Assembly (NCBI GenBank): GCA_013359135.1
Contig: JABWCN010000022.1
Coordinates: 1-64,000, forward strand
Direction: 5' to 3'
DNA: 64,000 nt
Origin: Pseudobdellovibrionaceae bacterium
Lineage (GTDB): Bacteria > Bdellovibrionota > Bdellovibrionia > Bdellovibrionales > Bdellovibrionaceae
Shown here one piece after another: positions 55 through 12,294 of the stretch; position 1 is the stretch's first letter, and each line of letters begins with the position of its first letter. A program made the translations under genes and the position numbers. The notes below the pieces were generated by a model. The model was not told the DNA's origin, did no database searches, and saw nothing but the letters and a program-made list of their open reading frames with translations.

Positions 55-801
55 TTAAATTATTGCGTCAAAAGTCTGATTAACAAAAAAGCGGGACACT
101 ATGGCTCCGACCCACGCTAAGGGAGTCGTCAGCTGGTCTGGGCTAAGAGCATAAACCTTGTCTGCTATGTGACCAAAAGGATTTGAAATTAATATTTTAA
201 ATGTCAAGCCCCAGACAAAACGGCGAAGTCCATAGGAAATATCGTGATGAGAAATCGCTCGAACTGTCATTTGTGTGGCTATATCTTTATATCTGACAAT
301 GGGACCTGCAATCAATTGAGGAAAGAAGCTTTTATAAAGCCCCATTTTAAAAATATTTTTTTGCGCTGAGATTTGCCCACGATAGATATCAATCAAATAA
401 GAAATGATTTGAAAAATGAAGAAAGAAACACCAATAGGTAGATGGACAGGAGATTTCTTGATTGGTTCAGCCCAATTTGTGGCAATTAAAACCTGATTCC
501 AGTTTTCTAAGAGGAAATTAAAATATTTATAGTAAAGTAAAACTCCAAGAGAAACGCTGACACCTAAAAATAAAATTGTCTTGTTATGTTGACGATATTT
601 CTCTAGCAAAATTCCAAAAATCCATCCAAGGAAAATAGAGCCTATCATAACCTTGACGTATTCGTGCTCTCCCCAAGCATAAAAAAACAAACTACTAACC
701 AAGAGCACTCCATTACGAATTCTTGATGAAGGTGTTAGAAAGTAGAGAAAGCAGGTCAGCGGTAGAAACAGAAAAATAAAAAGACTAGAGCTAAATACCA
801 T
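55..801 (-). pseudogene. Truncated MBOAT-family O-acyltransferase (AlgI-like), C-terminal half missing
   Basis: The 248 residues match the N-terminal half of membrane-bound O-acyltransferases that acetylate exported polysaccharides: repeated hydrophobic segments, then HLPIGVSFFIFQ (about 120-131) and a PQLIAGPIVRY signature (about 161-171). Family members are usually about 450-500 residues, and the catalytic His lies in the missing half. After the conserved LAWVGAI near residue 233 the family sequence should continue into a FQIYxDFSGYSD-like segment. Instead an unrelated tail (SRFFVNQTFDAII) and a stop follow, so the gene looks broken by an insertion or rearrangement whose other side lies beyond the window. 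Its start overlaps the lhgO stop by 11 bases, so it is the last gene of the 4260-to-55 operon. The break is clear, its cause is not. Confidence 0.72.
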
Positions 802-2089
802 GGATTAAATCTCCAGCTTTGGTTTCTGTATCCGCCGTTGGCGATGAATTCATAGGTGAGGAAAGATGTTGCTCTATTTTCTCTAGCATCAATCGGGCGA
901 AAGGAATAGAGCATGTGAATGCCGGTGAAACAGCATTCAATACATGGAATGAATGACTATCACCCTGATAGCAGAAGTCCATAACAAGAGCTTGTTTTTT
1001 TAAATCAAAAAGTTGAGCTCTGATTCCTGGTTTTCCCCAGTGTTTGTAATCATTAAGATGAACCTCTTTGGCCATGCTTTGGGCTTCATGAACGAGGTTA
1101 GGTTTGTAATATTTTTTAAACTCTGTCAGTGCAAGTTCACGAAAATTAAAGTTAGAATTTAAAAATAGTTTTAGTTCTTGAGTGGAAATTTCAACTAATT
1201 CTTTGGCATTGAAACGAGACAAGCCTGAGTACTGCTCTCGCCAAAAAGCAGGGATTGCAGTAGGTCCAATTTTAGATTTTCCGTCGACTGTGATAGTGTG
1301 ATGAACACCTAAAAAAGGATTGTTTAAGTTGGGGACAGGATAGATATGCCTCTTTAGAGGAGAAACTGTGGGGTTTTGATCTGAATAAAGATAAATACCT
1401 TTAAATGGAATGATTGTCATATCTTTGCAGAAACCATACTGTTTAGCAATTTGGTCTGCGTAGAGGCCAGCACAGTTAATGATATAGCCTGCAGTGATTT
1501 CTTGTTTGCTGGTGAGAACCTTTTGTTGGCCTAAATTTTTAATGAAGGCTGTATCTGCTTGAAAAAGGACTCCCATTTTTTGGGCTTGCTCAAGTAAATG
1601 ATTTAAGACTTCTTTTGGATCGATCACTGATGTTTTTGGTGAGTACAGGGCTCTTTGGTGGGTCTTTACTCTAGGTTCTAGCTCCAAAGCTTCTTTTTCG
1701 GTGATTTCATGTAATGTCACTCCATTGACTTGAGCTCGCTTGGATAGAGTGTTTAGGCCTTCCAGTTCAGACTCATTTTTAGCTACCACAAGCTTGCCAC
1801 ATTGATTAATTCGTAACTTCATTGTTAGGCAGTAATCGGTTAAAATTTCATTCCCCTGTCTGCAAAGAAGGGCCTTTAAGCTATCTGCTGTGTAATAAAA
1901 TCCAGCATGTAAAACACCACTGTTTCTGCCGCTAGAATGATAGGCAGTTTGTTTTTCTTTATCAATTAAAAGAACACTCCTTTGCGGGTATTTCTTTTTT
2001 ATTTCAATACTCAGGGCGGTACCAATAATTCCGGAGCCGATAATTAAAAAATCAACATTGTTTTTTTGTAGAGATTCAGATTTAGACAT
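791..2089 (-). CDS. lhgO: FAD-dependent L-2-hydroxyglutarate oxidase/dehydrogenase (LhgO family)
   Basis: A 432-residue DAO-type flavoprotein. The N-terminal FAD-binding motif GSGIIG is at residues 18-23, followed by the acidic end of the second strand (LLIDKE) and the family motif SSGRNSGVLHAGFYY (about 53-67). Length and motifs fit LhgO/YgaF, which oxidises L-2-hydroxyglutarate to 2-oxoglutarate and passes electrons to the respiratory chain. It sits inside a polysaccharide operon, between an SDR epimerase gene (25-base gap) and a truncated acyltransferase gene (11-base overlap). That context raises the alternative that it oxidises a sugar-derived 2-hydroxyacid. Family assignment is confident; the substrate here is inferred from the family. 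Confidence 0.85.
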   Translation of the reverse strand: MSKSESLQKNNVDFLIIGSGIIGTALSIEIKKKYPQRSVLLIDKEKQTAYHSSGRNSGVLHAGFYYTADSLKALLCRQGNEILTDYCLTMKLRINQCGKLVVAKNESELEGLNTLSKRAQVNGVTLHEITEKEALELEPRVKTHQRALYSPKTSVIDPKEVLNHLLEQAQKMGVLFQADTAFIKNLGQQKVLTSKQEITAGYIINCAGLYADQIAKQYGFCKDMTIIPFKGIYLYSDQNPTVSPLKRHIYPVPNLNNPFLGVHHTITVDGKSKIGPTAIPAFWREQYSGLSRFNAKELVEISTQELKLFLNSNFNFRELALTEFKKYYKPNLVHEAQSMAKEVHLNDYKHWGKPGIRAQLFDLKKQALVMDFCYQGDSHSFHVLNAVSPAFTCSIPFARLMLEKIEQHLSSPMNSSPTADTETKAGDLIHGI

Positions 2090-2113
2090 AATAATCTTTC
2101 TTGTATTTAAGTG

Positions 2114-3079
2114 TTAAGAAGTGTGACGGTATTTCTCTTGATAATCTGAAGCAATTTGATCCCAGGCTTTTTTTTCATCCCAATCAGTGATCAGATGAGT
2201 AGCAGGATCTGTGTTAATTCTCATGTAAGGTTCAGTGAACTGACTTTGCTTAGCTATTGTGACGGAGCATTTTTTTTGCAAACGCGAAGTCATTTCATTA
2301 GCAAAGCGCAGGGTGAAACTTCCCTGGGATTCAACGTATCCACTAGGATTTATTTTAAGATAAGAACTCTCACTTGACTTGAGTTGAAGGCAAAAATGAG
2401 CATAGACTTTTGCTAGAAGCTCAACATGAATGTTGTCCCGAATATAATCTGGAAAACTCATCGTTGGCGTCTGATCTTGGATCCACGAGCGCATAAGGTA
2501 AGTAGTTAGTTTTTCCTCTTCAAAGGTTCCAAAGGGATTTGCTAAAACAAATTTACCCATTTTAATTCTATGGCGTTCGCAATAGAACTTGATGACTTCA
2601 TTTGTTAGGTTTTTTGATAACCCATAAGGAGAAGCGGCCTTTAACGGAGCATTGCCAACACCTTCATTGCTTTCAAAAACAGTTCCGGTGTGTATCAGGT
2701 GTTGTCCCTGATTTTGAGTAAAGGTCTTAATCACTTCCTCTAGATTTTCTATGTTGTTTTTTAGGGCGCTTAGAAAGTCAAAATCCTGGCTTTTATAATT
2801 GGTGACAAAAGCCCCGTGAAGTCCCAAAAAATCCCAATGTTTTTTTTCTTTTAAAAGGGCTATGGTTTTTGAGCTTCCCAAAGGACAGTCAAAAACAAGT
2901 TCAATTCCTAAATTTTTATCGCTTAGGTTTTCAATTCTTTGCTTGCGGACTCCAGAGTAGTCAGCAAGTTGTTTTTTTTGTAATAGGGCGGTCACTTGAA
3001 AGCCTTGTTCTGCTAAGACTTTGGCAAACCAGAAACCAGAGAAGGAGCTAGCTCCCGTAAGAAGTATTCTGGGACTCAT
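2114..3079 (-). CDS. NAD(P)-dependent epimerase/dehydratase (extended SDR family)
   Basis: A 321-residue extended SDR with the N-terminal nucleotide-binding motif TGASSFSG (8-15) and a downstream active-site block SPYGLSK that supplies the Tyr and Lys of YxxxK (about residues 152-156). Such enzymes epimerise, dehydrate or reduce nucleotide sugars in the cytoplasm. Its start overlaps the stop of the upstream glycosyltransferase by four bases (ATGA), so the two are translationally coupled. The exact sugar cannot be read from the sequence. A role in making a donor sugar for the surrounding polysaccharide locus is the natural inference. Confidence 0.8.
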   Translation of the reverse strand: MSPRILLTGASSFSGFWFAKVLAEQGFQVTALLQKKQLADYSGVRKQRIENLSDKNLGIELVFDCPLGSSKTIALLKEKKHWDFLGLHGAFVTNYKSQDFDFLSALKNNIENLEEVIKTFTQNQGQHLIHTGTVFESNEGVGNAPLKAASPYGLSKNLTNEVIKFYCERHRIKMGKFVLANPFGTFEEEKLTTYLMRSWIQDQTPTMSFPDYIRDNIHVELLAKVYAHFCLQLKSSESSYLKINPSGYVESQGSFTLRFANEMTSRLQKKCSVTIAKQSQFTEPYMRINTDPATHLITDWDEKKAWDQIASDYQEKYRHTS

Positions 3080-4465: not shown

Positions 4466-5680
4466 ATGTCATGTCTTGTTTGTAAGTCAGAAATAAAGCC
4501 GGTGATTTCGTTTGGTCAGCAACCTATTGCTAACGGTTTTTTGACTCCTGAAAAATTCAAAGAAGAATATTTTTTTGAATTAAAAATTGGCTGGTGTCCA
4601 AAATGTGCTATGGTTCAACTTCTAGAGCAACCTAAACCGGAAATGATGTTCAATGAAAATTATGCATTTTTTTCTGGCACCTCTAAATACATGGCAGTTC
4701 ATTTCGAAAAATTTGCTCACACTATGATGGATCGTTATGTTAAAGGCCCTAACGCTTTTGTTGTTGAAATTGGTAGTAACGATGGAATCATGTTAAGACA
4801 TTTTAAAAATGCCGGTATTAAACATCTTGGTATTGAGCCTTCGGCTAATGTTGCAGCGGTGGCTAAAAAAGAAGGCATTAATACCTGGGTAAGGTTTTTT
4901 AATGCAGAAACGGCAAAAGAAATTGTTAAAGAATATGGTCAAGCCGATGGTTTTCAAGCAGCCAATGTGATGTGCCATCTTCCTGATTTACACAGTATTG
5001 CTGAAGGAATTAAGATTTTACTTAAACCCACAGGTGTGGTGGCTTTTGAAGATCCTTATTTGGTGGATGTATTGGAAAAAGTTTCCTATGATCAGGTTTA
5101 TGATGAGCATATGTGCTTGTTTTCAGCGACCTCAATCCAGTACTTGTTTAATCAGTACGGCATGGAGTTGATCGACTTGGAGCCACAAGTGACTCACGGT
5201 GGATCTATGCGTTATTATATAGGTCATAAAGGTCAGCATAAAGTATCTAAGAATGTCACACATTATTTAACTATGGAAAGAGAAAAGGGTCTCCTGAAGG
5301 CTGAAACTTTTGAAAAATTTTATCATGATTGTGAAAAATCAAAAACAGATTTAATGAATTTGCTAAAATCATTAAAAGAACAGAAGAAGAGGGTTGTAGG
5401 TTATGCTGCTACTTCTAAGAGTACTACAGTGATTAATTATTGTGGTATTACTCCAGATCTTGTGGAGTTTATCAGTGACACGACTCCTATTAAGCAAGGG
5501 AAATACAGTCCTGGAAAACATATTCCTGTTCTTTCCAGCGAGAAGTTTTCTTCAAATCCTCCGGACTATGCTCTTTTATTTGGTTGGAATCATAAGGCAG
5601 AAATCATGGAAAAAGAGAAAAAATTTACTCAAGGTGGTGGCAAGTGGATCACCTATGTTCCTAAAGTTGAGATCATCTAA
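4466..5680 (+). CDS. SAM-dependent nucleotide-sugar C-methyltransferase (TylCIII/EvaC type)
   Basis: This 404-residue protein has the three-part architecture of sugar C-methyltransferases. An N-terminal zinc site uses CLVC (3-6) and CPKC (44-47). A Rossmann methyltransferase domain carries the SAM motif EIGSNDG (101-107), and a C-terminal second Rossmann-like domain contains GYAATSKSTTVINY (about 309-322). Known relatives (TylCIII, EvaC) methylate carbon 3 of a dTDP-4-keto-6-deoxyhexose. It begins the plus-strand run whose next genes encode an aminotransferase, an epimerase, a ketoisomerase and a reductase. This suggests a C-methyl-branched amino sugar. The family is confident; the methylated carbon and the nucleotide are inferred. 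Confidence 0.85.
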   Translation: MSCLVCKSEIKPVISFGQQPIANGFLTPEKFKEEYFFELKIGWCPKCAMVQLLEQPKPEMMFNENYAFFSGTSKYMAVHFEKFAHTMMDRYVKGPNAFVVEIGSNDGIMLRHFKNAGIKHLGIEPSANVAAVAKKEGINTWVRFFNAETAKEIVKEYGQADGFQAANVMCHLPDLHSIAEGIKILLKPTGVVAFEDPYLVDVLEKVSYDQVYDEHMCLFSATSIQYLFNQYGMELIDLEPQVTHGGSMRYYIGHKGQHKVSKNVTHYLTMEREKGLLKAETFEKFYHDCEKSKTDLMNLLKSLKEQKKRVVGYAATSKSTTVINYCGITPDLVEFISDTTPIKQGKYSPGKHIPVLSSEKFSSNPPDYALLFGWNHKAEIMEKEKKFTQGGGKWITYVPKVEII

Positions 5681-5713
5681 TTTTTAAAAATTATAATAAT
5701 GAGCGAGGTATAA

Positions 5714-6819
5714 ATGATTTTATGTGCCAACCCCAAAGTGCAATATTTAGCCTACAGTCAAGAAATCAATAAGGCTGTTCAATCGGTTTTTGAAAGTGGT
5801 TATTATATCAATGGTCCACAGGTGAAAGCTTTCGAGGAGGATTTTGCAAAGTACATAGGGGTGGCTCATTGTGTGGGTGTTGCGAATGGAACAGATGCTA
5901 TTGAGTTGGCATTAAGAGCCATGGAAATAGGAAGTGGTGACGAAGTTTTGACAGTAGCGCATACCGCAAGTGCGACGGTCTCTGCTATTGAAAGAGCCGG
6001 GGCAACTCCTGTGCTTTTGGATGTGGATCCAGTAACATATACTTTGGATGTGAAATCTTTAGCAAAGGCATTAACATCTAAAACTAAAGCGGTTGTGGCG
6101 GTACATTTGTATGGTCATCCAGTTGACGTAGAAGCCGTAAAATCTTTTTGTAAGCAGAATCTTTGAAGTTTATTGAAGACTGCGCTCAAGCTCATGGTGC
6201 TAAATATCAAGGGAAAAATATTGGTTCATTGGGTGATATTTCTTGTTTTAGTTTTTATCCCACAAAAAACTTGGGAGCTATTGGCGATGGTGGTGCAGTA
6301 GCTACAAATGATGCTGCTATTTTTGAGAAACTAATGCAGATCAGAGAGTATGGCTGGAAGGACAAGTATATTTCTATTCGTCAGGGAGTTAACTCCAGGT
6401 TAGATGAAGTTCAGGCTGCTATTTTAAAAGCAAAATTACCTCATTTGAACAAAATGAATCAACGCCGCCAGGAAATTGCAAGTATTTACCTCAAAGAACT
6501 TAGTGGCTTACCAATTACTTTACCGCAACTGAAAGTAGGTTGCGAACACGTATACCATCTTTTTGTTATCAGATTGAAAAATAAAGCTGTCAGGGATCAA
6601 CTAAAAACCTATTTGGCAGATAATCAAGTTCATTGCTTGATTCATTATCCGGTGCCAATACATGAACAACCCAACTATTTAAATAAAGTTAGAACTGCTG
6701 GAGAACTCAAGGAAACGAGTGCTCTTTCTCAGGAGATATTGTCTTTACCTATGTATCCTGAACTTACGAATGAAGAAGTTTTAAAAGTGGTAGATTTGAT
6801 TAAGTCTTTTAAGTTTTAA
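5714..6819 (+). pseudogene. DegT/DnrJ/EryC1 (FdtB-like) sugar aminotransferase, interrupted by one frameshift
   Basis: Two adjacent frames encode the halves of one PLP-dependent sugar aminotransferase. Frame A (5714-6166) ends in [10 protein letters not shown] and a TGA. Frame B, from 6163, resumes with [15 protein letters not shown], the expected continuation, and carries the PLP lysine in [10 protein letters not shown] (lysine codon 6265-6267). Restoring one base between about 6158 and 6163 would give a normal 368-residue enzyme. No classical slippery heptamer is visible, so recoding is unlikely. A real mutation or a base-call error is the likely cause. With the FdtA-like isomerase at 7345, the natural role is transamination of a 3-keto-6-deoxyhexose to a 3-amino sugar. 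Family confident; whether the gene is dead is uncertain. Confidence 0.82.
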
Positions 6820-6862
6820 TATAGGGTAATTAAAGAGCAATATAAAAAAATGGATTATTAAA

Positions 6863-7345
6863 ATGGAATTAGGAAAAGATATTCTGGAAACAGAAATCAA
6901 AGGTCTAAGAGTTAAAACTTTGAAGCGATTTGTGGACGAGCGTGGTGATTTTCGCGAAATTGTCAGAACTACGGATCCTGGTTTTCAAGGCTTTAGCCAG
7001 TTAAGTACTTCAGTAGTGTACGAGGGGATTGCTAAAGCATGGCATCTACATTGGGATCAAACCGAATCAATGACCTGTTTTATTGGTATTGTTAAGTTTG
7101 CTTTTTGTGATCGTCGTAAAGAATCTTCGACGTATAATAAAGTTATTGATTTTGTTGTCGACTCTAGAGCCAATCCTATGTTGTTTACCTTTGAGCCGGG
7201 GATTGCTCATGGTTACAGAGTCATTCATGGCCCGGCAGTTATAGGTTATTTAACAAATAGAATTTATGATCCAAAGGATCAGTTCAGGGTAGATCCTAAT
7301 TCTCCAGATATTAATTATTACTGGGGACCCCCAGCGGTGGTGTGA
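6863..7345 (+). CDS. RmlC-like dTDP-4-dehydro-6-deoxysugar 3,5-epimerase family protein
   Basis: A 160-residue cupin of RmlC type. It starts with an ETEIKGLRVKTLKRFVDERGDF strand pattern and carries the HLHWDQTE block with catalytic-type His. Then come FEPGIAHGYRVIHG and the C-terminal DPNSPDINYYWG tail, which resembles the family's D-P-x-x-x-I-x-W-P ending. RmlC relatives epimerise C3 and/or C5 of dTDP-4-keto-6-deoxyglucose. It is slightly shorter than typical RmlC, so it may epimerise one centre only, as EvaD-type enzymes do. The stop overlaps the next start (TGATG), showing tight coupling in the nucleotide-sugar operon. Confidence 0.82.
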   Translation: MELGKDILETEIKGLRVKTLKRFVDERGDFREIVRTTDPGFQGFSQLSTSVVYEGIAKAWHLHWDQTESMTCFIGIVKFAFCDRRKESSTYNKVIDFVVDSRANPMLFTFEPGIAHGYRVIHGPAVIGYLTNRIYDPKDQFRVDPNSPDINYYWGPPAVV

Positions 7346-7884
7346 TGAGTGAAGTCATGAACCAAAATCAAATAAGTAAGAACGAAATTATTAAAACTCA
7401 GTCATCGGATGTTTACACAACAACTAATCAAGTAAAGAGTAGGATCATGGATCAGAAACTTCATTCGTTAGAGGATGTTAAAATATTGAAACTTGCCAAA
7501 CACACCTCATTGGCTGTTGGTACATCTCAGGGAACATTGATCGTTGCTGAAGAAGGTAAAAATATTCCTTATTCTTGTCCTAGAATTTTTTTTGTACTCG
7601 ATTTAGAGCCTGGAGAAATTCGTGGAGATCACGCTCACCGTTATTGTTCACAGATTTTAATCTGTGTTCGGGGTGAAATTGAAGTTAAATGTACAGATGG
7701 AGCTCAGGAGCGAAAATTTGTTTTGAATTCTCCAGATCAAGCTTTATTGATCCCAAATTCTATCTGGGCCTCTCAGAAATATATGACAACTGAAAGTATT
7801 TTGTTAGTATTAACAGACAATCATTTTGATGAAAAAGATTATATTCGGAAGTTTGAAGATTACAAAGAGTTCAGAAAAGGATAA
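7345..7884 (+). CDS. FdtA/QdtA-like dTDP-6-deoxyhexose 3,4-ketoisomerase (WxcM-like cupin)
   Basis: The cupin core has RIFFVLDLEPGEIRGDHAHR, with the paired His of FdtA/QdtA in GDHAHR, followed by SQILICVRGEIEVKC and LIPNSIWAS. FdtA-type enzymes move the keto group of dTDP-4-keto-6-deoxyglucose from C4 to C3 so that a DegT enzyme can aminate C3. That partner is encoded two genes upstream. The ATG at 7345 overlaps the previous stop. It gives a 34-residue polar extension (rich in N, Q, T, S) before MDQKLHSLEDV, which is where a standard family member would begin. The internal ATG at 7447 is therefore an alternative start. Family assignment is confident. Confidence 0.83.
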   Translation: MSEVMNQNQISKNEIIKTQSSDVYTTTNQVKSRIMDQKLHSLEDVKILKLAKHTSLAVGTSQGTLIVAEEGKNIPYSCPRIFFVLDLEPGEIRGDHAHRYCSQILICVRGEIEVKCTDGAQERKFVLNSPDQALLIPNSIWASQKYMTTESILLVLTDNHFDEKDYIRKFEDYKEFRKG

Positions 7885-7887
7885 AAT

Positions 7888-8832
7888 ATGAAAATTTGTG
7901 TATTAGGAGCTTTAGGTCACATTGGATCTCAGTTGATTCGTTCTTTACCAGAGGCATTTCCCAATGCTGAAATTGTTATGGTTGATAATTTTTTAGTGCA
8001 GCGGTATCCTTCTCTTTTTAATTTACCGAAAAATGGTAAGTATCATTTTGTTGAGAAAGATGTGACTAAAACTGATTTAACTGAAGAAATTAAAAATGCT
8101 GATGTGGCGATTCACTTAGCTGCTATCACTAATGCAGCTGAAAGTTTTGATATCAAAGATCATTTAGAAAAACATAATTTTTCTGCGACAAAAAATATTG
8201 CTGATCATTGTGTGAAATTAAATGTTCCAATGATTTTTATTTCAACTACCTCCGTTTATGGAACTCAAAGTCAGAGAGTCGATGAAAATTGTACAGAACA
8301 AGAATTACAACCTCAAAGCCCCTATGCCGAAACCAAATTAAGGGAAGAAAAGTTATTATCTGAAATGGGTAAAAACCAAGGTCTTAAGTATATTGCTTGT
8401 AGATTTGGAACCATTTTTGGAACCTCAGCAGGAATGAGATTTCATACAGCCGTTAATAAATTTTGCTGGCAGGCTGTTATGGGACAACCGATCACAGTTT
8501 GGAAGACTGCACTAGATCAAGTACGTCCTTACCTGGATTTGAATGATGCCGTTAGGTTTTTTGAATTTGCGATTAAAAATAAAACTTTCACTAACGAAAT
8601 ATACAACGTGGTAACTATGAATGCCTCAGTGAGAAATATAGTAGATACAATTAAGTATTTCGTGCCACAAGTTTCTATTAATTATGTGGATTCTAAAATC
8701 ATGAATCAGCTTTCCTATGAAGTGGATGCAAGTAAGTTAGCTAAGTTGGGTTTTACGCCTCAAGGTGATTTGAAATCTCAAATAGGTAAAACTGTAGAGT
8801 GGCTATCTCAATGTCAATCAGCGAAAAGGTAA
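7888..8832 (+). CDS. NAD(P)-dependent sugar epimerase/reductase (extended SDR)
   Basis: A 314-residue extended SDR with the start motif GALGHIGSQL (8-17), a HLAAITNAAES strand, and the catalytic Tyr/Lys in QSPYAETKLREE. It lies three bases after the ketoisomerase gene and ends immediately before the next gene. It closes the five-gene nucleotide-sugar set, so the likely job is the final 4-ketoreduction or an epimerisation of the branched amino sugar. Substrate specificity cannot be read from the sequence. Confidence 0.8.
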   Translation: MKICVLGALGHIGSQLIRSLPEAFPNAEIVMVDNFLVQRYPSLFNLPKNGKYHFVEKDVTKTDLTEEIKNADVAIHLAAITNAAESFDIKDHLEKHNFSATKNIADHCVKLNVPMIFISTTSVYGTQSQRVDENCTEQELQPQSPYAETKLREEKLLSEMGKNQGLKYIACRFGTIFGTSAGMRFHTAVNKFCWQAVMGQPITVWKTALDQVRPYLDLNDAVRFFEFAIKNKTFTNEIYNVVTMNASVRNIVDTIKYFVPQVSINYVDSKIMNQLSYEVDASKLAKLGFTPQGDLKSQIGKTVEWLSQCQSAKR

Positions 8833-8834
8833 AG

Positions 8835-9863
8835 ATGGCTTCAGGAAAAACTCTGAAGAAAAGTCTTGGTTTACTTTTTGTTATTTTATCATTTTGGTAT
8901 TTATTAGAACATCTGATCACTCACTTTGATCAACTTAAAGAGTTGAAGGTGAGTGTATTTTTTTTGGGAATTCTTTTTTTGTCTTTGCTTTTGTTTATTC
9001 TTTCTCATGCGATGAATGTGGCTTCTTGGTGGCTACTTCAGCCCAACAAGAAAAGCCAAGGACTTTCCTTCCTAATGAGTTCTGAAATTCATTTCAGGTC
9101 ACAAATTGCAAAGTATTTACCTGGAAACGTTTTTCATGTGATAAAGCTTGTTCAGGGTGCCACCGAGAAGGGGCTTAATTTAAAGCGAGTTTTATTTGTG
9201 TCTACTTTGCAAATAATCCTTACTTTAATTATGGGTTTTATTTTCGGATTGTTTACGTTGTTTTTTCGTTTTGAAGAACTTGCTAAGGTTTTGGAATTAC
9301 AAAAATTATGGTCTGAATTTGAATTTAGCTTTAAAGCAAAAGGTTATATGATTTTGGTTTTACTTGCTTTGCTAGTTGCAAGTTACGGTTTTTTATTTCT
9401 TTTCTTTAAGAAATCATTAAGTCATTTAAAAGAAAAGATTTTTAGTTTTCTTCAAGAACTAAAGGCTTTTTCCATTAGAGATATTATTTTTTCTCTTTTT
9501 GTATTATTCGTTGATTATTTATTAATGGGTTATATCTTTTATTTGGTTCTAAATTACTTTCCTGGTGTTAATTCTGAAATCAGTTATGGCTATTTGACAG
9601 GAAGTTTTGCTATTGCTTGGGTATTGGGTTCTATAGTTCCAGGAGCACCTGGCGGGATGGGTGTTAGGGAAGCTATTTTACTAAAGCTACTACTTCCATT
9701 TGGAGTGAGCGCTCCGATCTTGGTTGTTTTTTTATTAACGATACGTTTGGTGAATGTGCTTGCTGATGTGAGTGTGTTTTTTATAAGTTTTATGCCTTTT
9801 TTAAGTTTAACCAAATTAGAAGGCTCAGCAAAGTTAGAAAAATTGACCGAGGAAAATCCATGA
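8835..9863 (+). CDS. Flippase-like integral membrane protein (LPG synthase TM / UPF0104 family)
   Basis: A multi-spanning inner-membrane protein with the family signatures FRSQIAKYLPGNVFHVIKL near the N-terminus and GSIVPGAPGGMGVREAILL near residue 270. This is the lysylphosphatidylglycerol synthetase-type transmembrane domain without the soluble transferase domain. Standalone members are found next to polyprenyl-linked glycosyltransferases and are thought to act on lipid-linked sugars. I chose the ATG at 8835, just after the preceding stop, because AAGG lies five bases upstream. Starts at 8799 (GTG) and 8811 would overlap the previous gene. The stop overlaps the next gene's ATG. Confidence 0.78.
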   Translation: MASGKTLKKSLGLLFVILSFWYLLEHLITHFDQLKELKVSVFFLGILFLSLLLFILSHAMNVASWWLLQPNKKSQGLSFLMSSEIHFRSQIAKYLPGNVFHVIKLVQGATEKGLNLKRVLFVSTLQIILTLIMGFIFGLFTLFFRFEELAKVLELQKLWSEFEFSFKAKGYMILVLLALLVASYGFLFLFFKKSLSHLKEKIFSFLQELKAFSIRDIIFSLFVLFVDYLLMGYIFYLVLNYFPGVNSEISYGYLTGSFAIAWVLGSIVPGAPGGMGVREAILLKLLLPFGVSAPILVVFLLTIRLVNVLADVSVFFISFMPFLSLTKLEGSAKLEKLTEENP

Positions 9864-10567
9864 AGAAATGCGCCATCGTCATACCTTCTTTCAATGAAGG
9901 TCTTAGAGTTACAAAGACTATTTTGGATCTGTCACAGGTATTACAAGAAGTCAGCCAAGAATTTAGATTTGAGCTAGTGGTTGTAGATGATTGCTCTAGC
10001 GAGCCAGTGAATGTAACTCAACAGGGAATAGGTTTTCCTATCTATATACTTAGGCACACGATCAATCTTGGACAAGGGGCTGCTTTAGAAACGGGGTTTG
10101 CTTTTTGTCGTAAAAATTTAAAACCTGACTATGTGGCGACTGTGGATGCCGATGGTCAGCACAATGCTAAAGATATTATTCGTTTTCTAAGACATCTAGA
10201 AAAGGAGAATTTAGATATTCTTTTTGCTACACGTTTTAAGAAAAGCCCACATATTCCTTGGATGAGGAAAGTTATTTTAAAAATGGCTTCACGGTTTGAG
10301 TTGTTCATTACGGGTCTTAATTTAAGTGATGCACATAACGGATTTCGAGTCTTTAACTATAAGTGTTTAGAACAGTTAAAGTTGACTCAGAATCGTATGG
10401 CTCATGCGACAGAAATTAAACAAATAGTAGCCAGTAAAAAGTTAAACTATGCAGAACTTGAAAATAGCATTACTTATTCGCAAGAGAGTTTGCAAAAAGG
10501 GCAGTCCAATTTGGGTGCCTTATTAATTTTAAAAGATTTATTAAACAGCTATTTATTTGATCGATAA
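9860..10567 (+). CDS. GT2-family glycosyltransferase (DPM1/polyprenyl-phosphate sugar synthase-like)
   Basis: A 235-residue GT-A enzyme starting with CAIVIPSFNEG. It has the nucleotide-binding DDCSS (about 48-52), LGQGAALETGF, and the metal-binding DADGQH. The short soluble form resembles dolichyl-phosphate mannose synthase, which loads a sugar onto a polyprenyl phosphate. It overlaps the flippase-like gene by four bases and precedes a DUF2304 gene and a GT-C transferase. That arrangement is typical of a lipid-linked sugar donor pathway: charge the lipid, flip it, then transfer the sugar on the periplasmic side. Confidence 0.87.
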   Translation: MKKCAIVIPSFNEGLRVTKTILDLSQVLQEVSQEFRFELVVVDDCSSEPVNVTQQGIGFPIYILRHTINLGQGAALETGFAFCRKNLKPDYVATVDADGQHNAKDIIRFLRHLEKENLDILFATRFKKSPHIPWMRKVILKMASRFELFITGLNLSDAHNGFRVFNYKCLEQLKLTQNRMAHATEIKQIVASKKLNYAELENSITYSQESLQKGQSNLGALLILKDLLNSYLFDR

Positions 10568-10580
10568 TTAAGGGGGGAGA

Positions 10581-10913
10581 ATGAAATTATTTAGTTTGGT
10601 TTCTGTTGTTTTCATTTTTTTGTTGGTCCTATTAGATAGTTTATTTGTTCCAAAGCGAGCTAGAAAAGCACTAAAGTGGATGACTGGCTTTTATTTATTT
10701 TTACTTATTTTTGTAGTCTTTCAAGAGCCCTTTGATTCTTTGGCTAAATTTTTAGGAGTTGGCCGACCAGTAGATATTATTTTATACTTTTCAACCGTTA
10801 TCCTATTCAGAGAGTTTTTCTTATCAAGACAACGCCATTATCTTATGATGCAGCAGTTGACTTTACTCACCAGAGAAAATGCTTTGAATCAGGTAACTCA
10901 TTGGCAAGGATAA
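10581..10913 (+). CDS. DUF2304 small membrane protein
   Basis: A 110-residue protein with about three predicted membrane helices, the motif GVGRPVDIILYFSTV, and a charged C-terminal tail (EFFLSRQRHYLMMQQLTLLTREN). Length and the GxGRxxD pattern fit DUF2304, a family usually encoded directly after a DPM1-like GT2 gene, as here. Function is unproven; an accessory role in the lipid-linked glycosyl donor step is inferred from context. A GGGGGAG ribosome site precedes the ATG. Confidence 0.75.
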   Translation: MKLFSLVSVVFIFLLVLLDSLFVPKRARKALKWMTGFYLFLLIFVVFQEPFDSLAKFLGVGRPVDIILYFSTVILFREFFLSRQRHYLMMQQLTLLTRENALNQVTHWQG

Positions 10914-10914
10914 A

Positions 10915-12294
10915 ATGGAAAAAGTAAAAAAGATATTTGGTTTGCTAGCGACCCTGGTTTTAGTGGTAGTGCTTGGTTATTTAGGCCTATGCTCTTTATA
11001 TAATTTTGATTTATCATGGGATTATCTTTCTTATCATTTGCCTCATATTTTACATATTTTAGGTAAAACTACATTTACCGAGGCAGCGAAGCTAGTTGAG
11101 GTGAATAAAGGTTTCCCTCCACTAACTCATTATCTACAAGCATTGTTATTAAAGCTTACTGGCAAGTTCAGTGCGACTAATCTCATTAATTATTTATCCA
11201 TCATTGGGTTATTGAGTTATTTACGCTTTCGCCAAGGAGTAAAGGGTTTTCCCTTTTTGATTTCTAGTTTTTTAGTTTTAAGCGTACCTATGGTTTTTAT
11301 TCAAATGACTCATTCTTACGTGGATCTCTGGGCAAATACGCTTTTAACATTACTATTTGCTGAAGCTGTACTGACTGAGGAAAAAAATCAGAGTCTCTCT
11401 TTGAGAAGTGTGAGTGTATTTGTATTTTTGTTTGCATTAGCTATTTTTTCTCGTTACCAGATGTGGCCAGCAGCACTGATTGTTTGTGCCTTTTTTCTGT
11501 TTAAAAGAAAAGACGCTTTGTTGAAAGCTCCAAAGAAATTCTTTTTATTGTTGTTGTTGCTTGCAAGCATTTTTTGTTTTTGGCCTTTACGTAATATTTA
11601 TAAATTTAATAATCCTGTATATCCTCTACAGTCTCCAGTTTTTAAGAGTTATTTTAATAACGTGCGGATGGATCCAAAAAGTCATCTCCATGTTCCTGCT
11701 TATATTAAGCCCTATCCTGGAGTATTTAAATTTTTAGCTTCTGCTTTTGAAATTAGCCGTTTTTTGACTGCAGAACCTTTTTCGTGGTCCATTGACCAAG
11801 GACATCCCAAGGGTGTTGATAGTCCTCATCATCGAATGGGGGGATGGTCAATCTATACCATGATACTTTTAGTTCTATTGGTGATTATAGTTTATTCGAA
11901 TATTAAAGAAAAGATGAATTATTTTTTTATTCTTATCTTATTAACTAGTTTTTTTCCTCAGTCACATGAATTGCGATATTGGCTTTATCTCCCTTTGATT
12001 GCTTCGCTATTTATTGGAATTGGTTTCATGGGTAATGAAAAAATAAAATCGTCATTAGCTTTATTTTTACTCGTAGTTATAGTTAATTTTTCCTACGTAT
12101 TCTATGAACTTTTTCCTAAACTTGTTAGACAGCCAATAGAAATGTATGCACCAAAAGAGGCTGAGGATTTTTGGTTAGAAGCAAGTAAGAATTCTGTAGA
12201 TAAAGAATATATGATTTGCAAAATGCCTTACACTCTTTTTTTTGCAGGTAAAAACTTTAATCAATTCAAAGTAACCGAGTGTCCTATTGATTAG
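10915..12294 (+). CDS. GT-C membrane glycosyltransferase (ArnT/GT39-like)
   Basis: A 459-residue protein of about ten to twelve hydrophobic segments. After the first helix an external loop carries the acidic motif LSWDYLSYHLPH (about 28-39), the kind used by GT-C enzymes to bind lipid-linked sugar donors. A positively charged periplasmic stretch (PLQSPVFKSYFNN) follows the middle helices. It starts one base after the DUF2304 gene and ends the plus-strand run. It probably transfers a polyprenyl-phosphate sugar onto lipid A, core or O-antigen in the periplasm. Family placement rests on topology and motif, so exact specificity is unknown. Confidence 0.7.
   Translation: MEKVKKIFGLLATLVLVVVLGYLGLCSLYNFDLSWDYLSYHLPHILHILGKTTFTEAAKLVEVNKGFPPLTHYLQALLLKLTGKFSATNLINYLSIIGLLSYLRFRQGVKGFPFLISSFLVLSVPMVFIQMTHSYVDLWANTLLTLLFAEAVLTEEKNQSLSLRSVSVFVFLFALAIFSRYQMWPAALIVCAFFLFKRKDALLKAPKKFFLLLLLLASIFCFWPLRNIYKFNNPVYPLQSPVFKSYFNNVRMDPKSHLHVPAYIKPYPGVFKFLASAFEISRFLTAEPFSWSIDQGHPKGVDSPHHRMGGWSIYTMILLVLLVIIVYSNIKEKMNYFFILILLTSFFPQSHELRYWLYLPLIASLFIGIGFMGNEKIKSSLALFLLVVIVNFSYVFYELFPKLVRQPIEMYAPKEAEDFWLEASKNSVDKEYMICKMPYTLFFAGKNFNQFKVTECPID

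Follow-up and report, generated by a model that had tools for sequence, protein, structure and literature searches.

A five-gene set in a Pseudobdellovibrionaceae bacterium that may encode a route through C4 re-oxidation to a C-methyl-branched 3-amino sugar

C-methylated 3-amino sugars are best known from actinomycete antibiotics, whose pathways obtain the ketone needed for methylation through 2-deoxygenation. In this family, 3-C-methyltransferases remove a proton from C3 beside a C4 ketone, and KijD1 and TcaB9 act on 3-amino-4-keto sugars. In the vancosamine pathway, a 2,3-dehydratase gives a 3,4-diketone; this avoids the problem posed when FdtA shifts the ketone to C3 and a 3-aminotransferase replaces it by an amine, because C4 is then left as an alcohol. 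Kansosamine, a surface sugar, is also C-methyl-branched, but it is a 3-C-methyl-4-amino sugar. It occurs in the lipooligosaccharide of Mycobacterium kansasii (PMC4403928), and further C-methyl-branched surface sugars, namely virenose in Coxiella lipopolysaccharide (LPS; PMC3539893, in excerpt) and 3-C-methylmannose in the Helicobacter pylori O-antigen (PMC12961483, in excerpt), differ from the product proposed below in being free of nitrogen. The locus considered here lies in a 64,000-nucleotide stretch of DNA of a Pseudobdellovibrionaceae bacterium (GCA_013359135.1, JABWCN010000022.1; “the window”), which is made up of bases 1–64000 of contig 43 of a nearly complete genome (3.84 Mb in 94 contigs). 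At positions 4466–8832 of the + strand, the open reading frames (ORFs) and Pfam assignments place five gene types consecutively, in the order claimed by an earlier, sequence-only reading: a C-methyltransferase, a DegT aminotransferase, an RmlC-like cupin, an FdtA-like 3,4-ketoisomerase, and an extended short-chain dehydrogenase/reductase (SDR), here termed SDR-A. The intergenic gaps range from −4 to +43 bp, so the set is compatible with a single operon. The chances are about even that the five genes encode one dTDP-sugar pathway in which C4 is re-oxidized before C3 is methylated.

Each of the closest described systems shares a part of this set. The vancosamine enzymes EvaA–E resemble the set in the types of their aminotransferase, C-methyltransferase, RmlC-like epimerase, and SDR, but the window has a ketoisomerase and a Cj1427/GalE-like SDR, and the 2-hydroxyl group would be expected to be kept. 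The KijD1 and TcaB9 pathways use 2-deoxy substrates formed via a 2,3-dehydratase, whereas the window has FdtA; a 2,3-dehydratase (PF03559) was found in none of the 17 genomes described below, an absence that is unproven because the control genomes were also silent, and the profile itself does recognize a protein of a Serratia plasmid (300.5 bits). FdtA/FdtB and QdtA/QdtB, which lead to Fuc3N and Qui3N, have in common with the window a ketoisomerase bearing both histidines and a DegT type that matches QdtB among others; in the window, however, this pair is joined to a C-methyltransferase and SDR-A, and the aminotransferase frame is broken. The sequence-only reading had likened the set to the EvaBCDE route with a ketoisomerase in place of the 2,3-dehydratase. 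Such a substitution fails on chemical grounds, since FdtA and 3-amination remove the 4-ketone that is needed; with C4 an alcohol after these two steps, an extra C4 oxidation is required before methylation. Oxidation at C4 has been described in Campylobacter jejuni, where Cj1427 acts on GDP-heptose with tightly bound NADH/NAD+, which is regenerated by conversion of α-ketoglutarate to L-2-hydroxyglutarate, and where RmlC-like epimerases and C4 reductases act after Cj1427 (PMC10680097, in excerpt). The logic of C4 dehydrogenase, RmlC-like epimerase, and C4 reductase (Cj1427–Cj1430–Cj1428) would be shared by the window, but the C. jejuni route uses GDP-heptose rather than a dTDP-deoxyhexose and adds no C-methyl group, and the excerpted text makes no mention of LhgO (PMC10680097).

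The first gene (4466..5680, + strand) encodes a 404-aa sugar 3-C-methyltransferase with the PF08421–PF13489–PF08484 architecture, a domain set that it shares with KijD1 and TcaB9. Its best PDB chains are 5t64 (“Sugar 3-C-methyl transferase,” 2.1e-119), which is taken to be KijD1, TcaB9 (3.3e-116), and 4rv9 (“D-mycarose 3-C-methyltransferase,” 1.5e-82), which is taken to be TylC3; the KijD1 match exceeds the TylC3 match by 121 bits, and identity over the full length is 46% to KijD1 and 45% to TcaB9. Y66 and E214 are the counterparts of the Tyr and Glu altered in the TcaB9 mutant entries 4e31 and 4e2y, respectively, and both are conserved, while H215, adjacent to E214, is aligned with what is presumably the catalytic His of KijD1/TcaB9-type enzymes. 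In a tree of 55 rows, built without TylC3, EvaC, EvaD, EvaE, and NovU and including several rows of unusual letter make-up (KijD1 and TcaB9 among them), a set of 24 rows is separated from the other 31 C-methyltransferases at 100/100 support. This set consists of the 16 closest sequences from the gene sets described below, six members of the KijD1/TcaB9 group, the sequence of genome G068, and that of locus L161 (G and L numbers denote genomes and loci). With FastTree, the 16 sequences again cluster with KijD1/TcaB9 and their group (0.92 support, and 0.62 for the 16 by themselves), and the G068 sequence lies outside. The enzyme had been called TylCIII/EvaC-like; the C-methyltransferase class is upheld, and the PDB matches and the tree, which contains neither TylC3 nor EvaC–E, identify KijD1/TcaB9 as the nearest group. 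The Coxiella virenose enzyme CBU_0691 is 44% identical to TylCIII (PMC3539893, in excerpt). Set against this TylCIII-like enzyme of a nitrogen-free sugar, the KijD1/TcaB9 grouping and the preference for KijD1 appear to favor an amino substrate, without proving one. A product of the class previously suggested, a C-methyl-branched 3-amino-6-deoxyhexose with its 2-hydroxyl retained, is likely, and a dTDP origin is possible. Members of the wider family occur on plasmids. A KijD1/TcaB9-group enzyme on a Serratia proteamaculans plasmid (NZ_MT039191.1; L207, 7959–10546) adjoins a 2,3-dehydratase and lies near aminotransferase and ketosynthase genes, possibly as part of an antibiotic-type sugar cluster, and on a Streptomyces atratus plasmid (NZ_CP109382.1; L205, 9492–10694) a group II intron reverse transcriptase gene (ltrA) is located just downstream of the C-methyltransferase gene.

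The last gene of the set, SDR-A (7888..8832, + strand; PF01370), scores only 45.8 bits against RmlD, for which the cut-off is 224, and is of the GalE/dehydratase type, GalE/Cj1427-like. A profile built from 12 SDR-A sequences and searched against PDB found Cj1427 as the best solved relative (128.7 bits, 2.7e-36, full length), and the two proteins share an ungapped stretch around G-x-S-P-x-M-R/VNxF; the AF2 model of SDR-A has a pLDDT of 90.4. By this likeness, SDR-A may be an NAD-dependent C4 dehydrogenase with α-ketoglutarate as its electron sink. The sequence-only reading had named it an SDR reductase, of which the SDR class stands; the reductase role is not supported, the nearest solved protein by profile being a C4 dehydrogenase, albeit by a small margin. 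A scan of viral contigs with the SDR alignment revealed no relative, and phage and plasmid SDR matches (5 of 137 and 15 of 478 records, respectively) were below about 31% identity among the matches listed. A second, distant SDR-A relative (26% identity; L152, 12550–13464) is located 2 kb from SDR-A in G142.

The aminotransferase is encoded by two ORFs in different frames: 5714..6166 (+ strand; 150 aa; PF01041 positions 5–137, 1.3e-47), which closes with TGA, and 6163..6819 (+ strand; 218 aa; PF01041 positions 141–359, 1.4e-64). The break at about 6163 is not near any long single-base run, and alignment compared by eye suggests that about one residue has been lost at the join as well. The closest PDB chains of the C-terminal piece are 7b0d, 7n63, and 2oga, followed by QdtB (3frk, 3.3e-54), and by its family the DegT enzyme would aminate C3. 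Because the frame is broken, this strain may not complete the pathway, and the route may be inactive in it. All five gene types are also found in G363, where the aminotransferase is intact and one small methyltransferase is added. A second DegT gene in the genome of the window, intact and scoring in full, lies on contig 56 next to a gene judged KdsA-like by eye; this DegT gene may belong to a different pathway. Programmed frameshifting was considered for the break, at which CTT TGA resembles the +1 frameshift site of prfB, and was rejected by eye, since a +1 shift hits a stop after three codons and never enters the second frame.

The two genes between the aminotransferase and SDR-A encode the cupin and the ketoisomerase. 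The FdtA-like protein (7342..7884, + strand) scores 129.8 bits with PF05523 (cut-off 23), and no other FdtA was found in the genome; both His residues altered in PDB 2pae and 2pak, which we take to be catalytic, are conserved, and an in-frame ATG at 7447 would bring the protein to the usual length. The RmlC-like cupin (6863..7345, + strand; PF00908, 63.8 bits) is likely to be a sugar epimerase; it reaches only 47 bits against an RmlC cut-off of 155.75. The gene classes assigned by the sequence-only reading are borne out, with the corrections that the aminotransferase does not occupy a single open frame and that the RmlC-like protein does not score as a true RmlC.

A feasible model of the pathway may be as follows. 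RmlA and RmlB, encoded on another contig, would supply dTDP-4-keto-6-deoxyglucose: a dTDP-glucose 4,6-dehydratase gene, the lack of which from the genome had been raised as a possible objection to the sugar assignment, is present on contig 5 (G000:C5:5823-6827; 427 bits, cut-off 365) beside RmlC, with neighbors that look by eye like RmlA and RmlD. FdtA would then shift the ketone to C3, the position at which the DegT enzyme would introduce an amino group, as their families suggest, giving a dTDP-3-amino-3,6-dideoxyhexose. SDR-A, acting as Cj1427 does, would re-oxidize C4 with tightly held NAD+, regenerated by conversion of α-ketoglutarate to L-2-hydroxyglutarate, and an LhgO-type oxidase would turn the latter back to α-ketoglutarate. 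The KijD1/TcaB9-type methyltransferase would methylate C3 of the resulting 3-amino-4-ketose and the RmlC-like cupin may epimerize C5, this being among the weakest steps. The end product would be a dTDP-linked 3-amino-3-C-methyl-3,6-dideoxyhexose for a surface glycan, with the 2-hydroxyl kept.

A candidate for the oxidase is encoded on the − strand of the window (791..2089); this LhgO-type protein scores above the curated equivalog cut-off (NF008726, 318.6 vs. 299 bits) and is proposed to recycle the by-product of SDR-A. Its gene belongs to a divergently oriented operon and lies 2.4 kb away from where the C-methyltransferase gene begins, with glycosyltransferase and SDR genes intervening; the latter (2114..3079, − strand; PF01370, 1.9e-10) encodes a divergent SDR that gave no meaningful PDB sequence match and is a weak candidate for the last reduction of C4. 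In G311, an LhgO homolog (1770–3017) overlaps SDR-A (835–1791) on the same strand, and in G337 a homolog is near SDR-A with an opposite-strand SDR between them. Gene position in these three of the 17 genomes suggests that LhgO is tied to the sugar pathway. Among the loci of the SDR scan described below, neither the 10 close ones (L045–L054) nor the 42 distant ones (L055–L096, of which 31 are at least 10 kb) showed an LhgO. The D-enantiomer offers a parallel: in Pseudomonas aeruginosa, WbpB yields D-2-hydroxyglutarate, and the LPS O-antigen drops when breakdown of this compound fails (PMC8651671, in excerpt). It is tempting to speculate that the locus holds a self-contained redox loop, in which a Cj1427-like dehydrogenase, acting after 3-amination, re-opens C4 for C3 methylation with α-ketoglutarate as electron acceptor, while the L-2-hydroxyglutarate so formed is removed by a dedicated LhgO encoded within or close to the cluster, the common 4-ketose then being reduced by a second SDR (10 of 17 genomes) or re-aminated by a second aminotransferase (4 of 17) to give a family of 2-hydroxylated 3-amino-3-C-methyl sugars. 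This fuller scheme is tentative, and its probability falls somewhat short of even.

That the gene arrangement is not a product of chance follows from the related sets present in 16 other genomes. These and the genome of the window were selected through SDR-A, which is therefore present in all 17 by selection, and only a comparison across 368 genomes from the phylum, in which the 5 or 6 top candidates per genome were scored (thresholds 1e-40 and 1e-60), is independent in both directions. In that comparison, SDR-A matches of at least 469 bits (the next reaching 147.6) and C-methyltransferases at least 57% identical (the next 43%) pick the same seven genomes; the random chance of identical seven-genome sets, 6e-15, is only a guide given shared ancestry and transfer. 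FdtA was found in 5 of these 7 genomes versus 34 of the 361 others (Fisher p 1.9e-4). Genome contigs were also scanned with the SDR alignment (window and G043), giving at least 52 loci, of which, among those listed, 10 are close (42–58% identity) and the other 42, which were excluded from the count, are distant (35% or less). The close loci belong to Magnetovibrio, gamma- and alphaproteobacteria, SAR86, Francisellaceae, Nitrospinaceae, Flavobacteriales, and Pelagibacteraceae, with one lacking a group, and all 10 of these further genomes hold the C-methyltransferase (nine at 48–64% identity to that of the window and one at 40%). The C-methyltransferase thus occurs in 17 of 17 genomes, at only 40% in G068, and adjoins an aminotransferase of the window type in 12 (window, G059, G060, G061, G062, G063, G064, G065, G067, G311, G337, and G363), with a spacing of −85 to +33 bp. 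FdtA exceeds the Pfam cut-off in 13 genomes, in 12 of them with at least 79 bits, and in eight (window, G060, G061, G062, G064, G065, G068, and G363) it ends directly before SDR-A. The gene set is a genuine module, rare yet widely scattered. Five other sampled members of the genus of the window gave no match to SDR-A or the C-methyltransferase at the set thresholds, so the distribution is patchy; transfer is a likely cause.

Additional genes recur with the module. A second SDR (“SDR-B”; at least 142 bits to either reference) is present in 10 of the 17 genomes, including the two reference genomes, and a second aminotransferase, 60–66% identical to that of G043, in four (G043, G063, G067, and G311; L041 8425–9591, L049 13304–14407, L053 6816–7937, and L201 681–1799). 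The L041 copy is LegC/PseC-like by NCBIfam, under the cut-offs, and a PglD-like acetyltransferase, named by eye, is near the second aminotransferase in L049 and L053. A TIGR04325-family methyltransferase also recurs in or near the module (L041 10022–10843, with related proteins in L050 and L051). The module contig of G196 (G196:C11; L200/L204) carries two FdtA–aminotransferase pairs, and one of the FdtA matches contains a stop codon.

Several observations weigh against a single pathway with re-oxidation by SDR-A. In the profile search, the margin of Cj1427 over UDP-GlcA 4-epimerase (116.6 bits) is just 12 bits, the order is reversed in a single-sequence search (82.6 bits for UDP-GlcA 4-epimerase vs. 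77.9 for Cj1427), and the two are tied in fold comparison (Z 35.7 and 35.5, respectively). The aminotransferase frame is broken in the window, and QdtB ranks only fourth among the aminotransferase PDB matches. The cupin keeps the catalytic His and Tyr of RmlC but has Glu in place of the catalytic Lys (for the roles of these residues, PMC7949155, in excerpt); a Lys-less RmlC-like protein occurs in 6 of the 17 genomes (window, G043, G066, G067, G142, and G363), that of G363 lacking the Tyr as well. The final reduction of C4, also among the weakest steps of the model, would fall to an enzyme with no clear candidate in the window: SDR-B, the candidate elsewhere, has no clear ortholog in the window's own genome (the best-scoring match is 29% identical), and its relatives look GalE-like. 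The window LhgO gene is on the opposite strand from that of the C-methyltransferase with two genes between, and the loci read from the remaining 14 genomes showed no LhgO. In G059, G068, G142, and G311, SDR-A is encoded on a different contig from the C-methyltransferase, and FdtA at 79 bits or more was not found in G063, G066, G067, G311, and G337; such absences are weak, as several of the genomes are fragmentary.

In G043, G142, and G196, moreover, an FdtA–aminotransferase pair is separated from the C-methyltransferase, which fits an alternative in which two sugars are made: a nitrogen-free 3-C-methyl-6-deoxyhexose of the virenose or evalose type by the C-methyltransferase, RmlC-like protein, and SDR, and Fuc3N or Qui3N by FdtA and the aminotransferase. 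The G066 contig holds the C-methyltransferase, RmlC-like, and SDR-A genes with no aminotransferase match, and the FdtA match of that genome is only below the cut-off; this contig, however, stops about 700 bp past the gene. Although non-amino 3-C-methyl sugars are known from Coxiella and H. pylori (PMC3539893 and PMC12961483, both in excerpt), the window enzyme groups with KijD1/TcaB9, whereas CBU_0691 is reported to resemble TylCIII, and 12 of the 17 genomes have the C-methyltransferase and aminotransferase genes side by side, making two sugars unlikely. The tie in fold and the lead of UDP-GlcA 4-epimerase in the single-sequence search, together with the GalE-type fold, could instead mean that SDR-A is an EvaE-like 4-ketoreductase or 4-epimerase and that the ketone for methylation arises in another way. 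This is distinctly unlikely, as the profile favors Cj1427, the LhgO and SDR-A genes overlap in G311, and no other gene of the set can be named as a source of the 4-ketone after FdtA and amination.

Re-oxidation would not be needed if the C-methyltransferase acted on the FdtA 3-ketose at C4 or C2 before amination to give a 3-amino-4-C-methyl (or 2-C-methyl) sugar, because a 3-ketose, by chemical reasoning, also has acidic α-hydrogens. However, the closest solved enzymes are sugar 3-C-methyltransferases, and SDR-A would be left without a role despite its strict co-occurrence, so that this order of events is very improbable. A more serious possibility, though still the lesser one and compatible with any of the other explanations, is that the set is a decaying remnant whose aminotransferase frameshift is real and which yields no finished sugar. 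The position of the break away from long single-base runs and the shortness of a neighboring MBOAT-like ORF (248 aa) are in keeping with decay; against it, the other genes of the module are open and tightly spaced, a consensus error is possible in a 94-contig assembly, and the intact DegT gene on contig 56 exists, though it may serve another pathway.

If the pathway with C4 re-oxidation is correct, bacteria would possess a second route to C-methylated 3-amino sugars, one that keeps the 2-hydroxyl group and is scattered over several bacterial groups, the products probably being surface sugars. Re-oxidation of C4 with α-ketoglutarate as the sink, reported for GDP-heptose, would then be a more general device, and the presence of an L-2-hydroxyglutarate oxidase gene in or near some such sugar clusters would be explained. 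Among the openly licensed papers listed on this gene combination, on branched amino sugars, and on 3-C-methylated LPS or O-antigen sugars, none describes the pathway; this is weak evidence of absence.

Downstream of SDR-A, the + strand continues with an LPG-synthase-TM/flippase-like membrane protein of the same operon (8799..9863; PF03706, 1.1e-14), a family 2 glycosyltransferase resembling polyprenyl-phosphate-sugar synthases (9860..10567; NF058614, 162.5 bits, under the cut-off of 370), a DUF2304 protein (10581–10913; PF10066), and a 459-aa membrane protein (10915–12294; NF047510, 25.7 bits, under its cut-off). The genes at 8799–12294 may form a polyprenyl-phosphate-sugar transfer set, which they look like more than a plain O-antigen operon, and the product of the pathway is probably destined for a surface glycan; the O-antigen named in the sequence-only reading is an assumption. 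The MBOAT-like ORF is located at the edge of the contig (55–801, − strand), where PF03062 matches under its cut-off; members of the MBOAT family are usually longer than 248 aa, and this one is possibly truncated.

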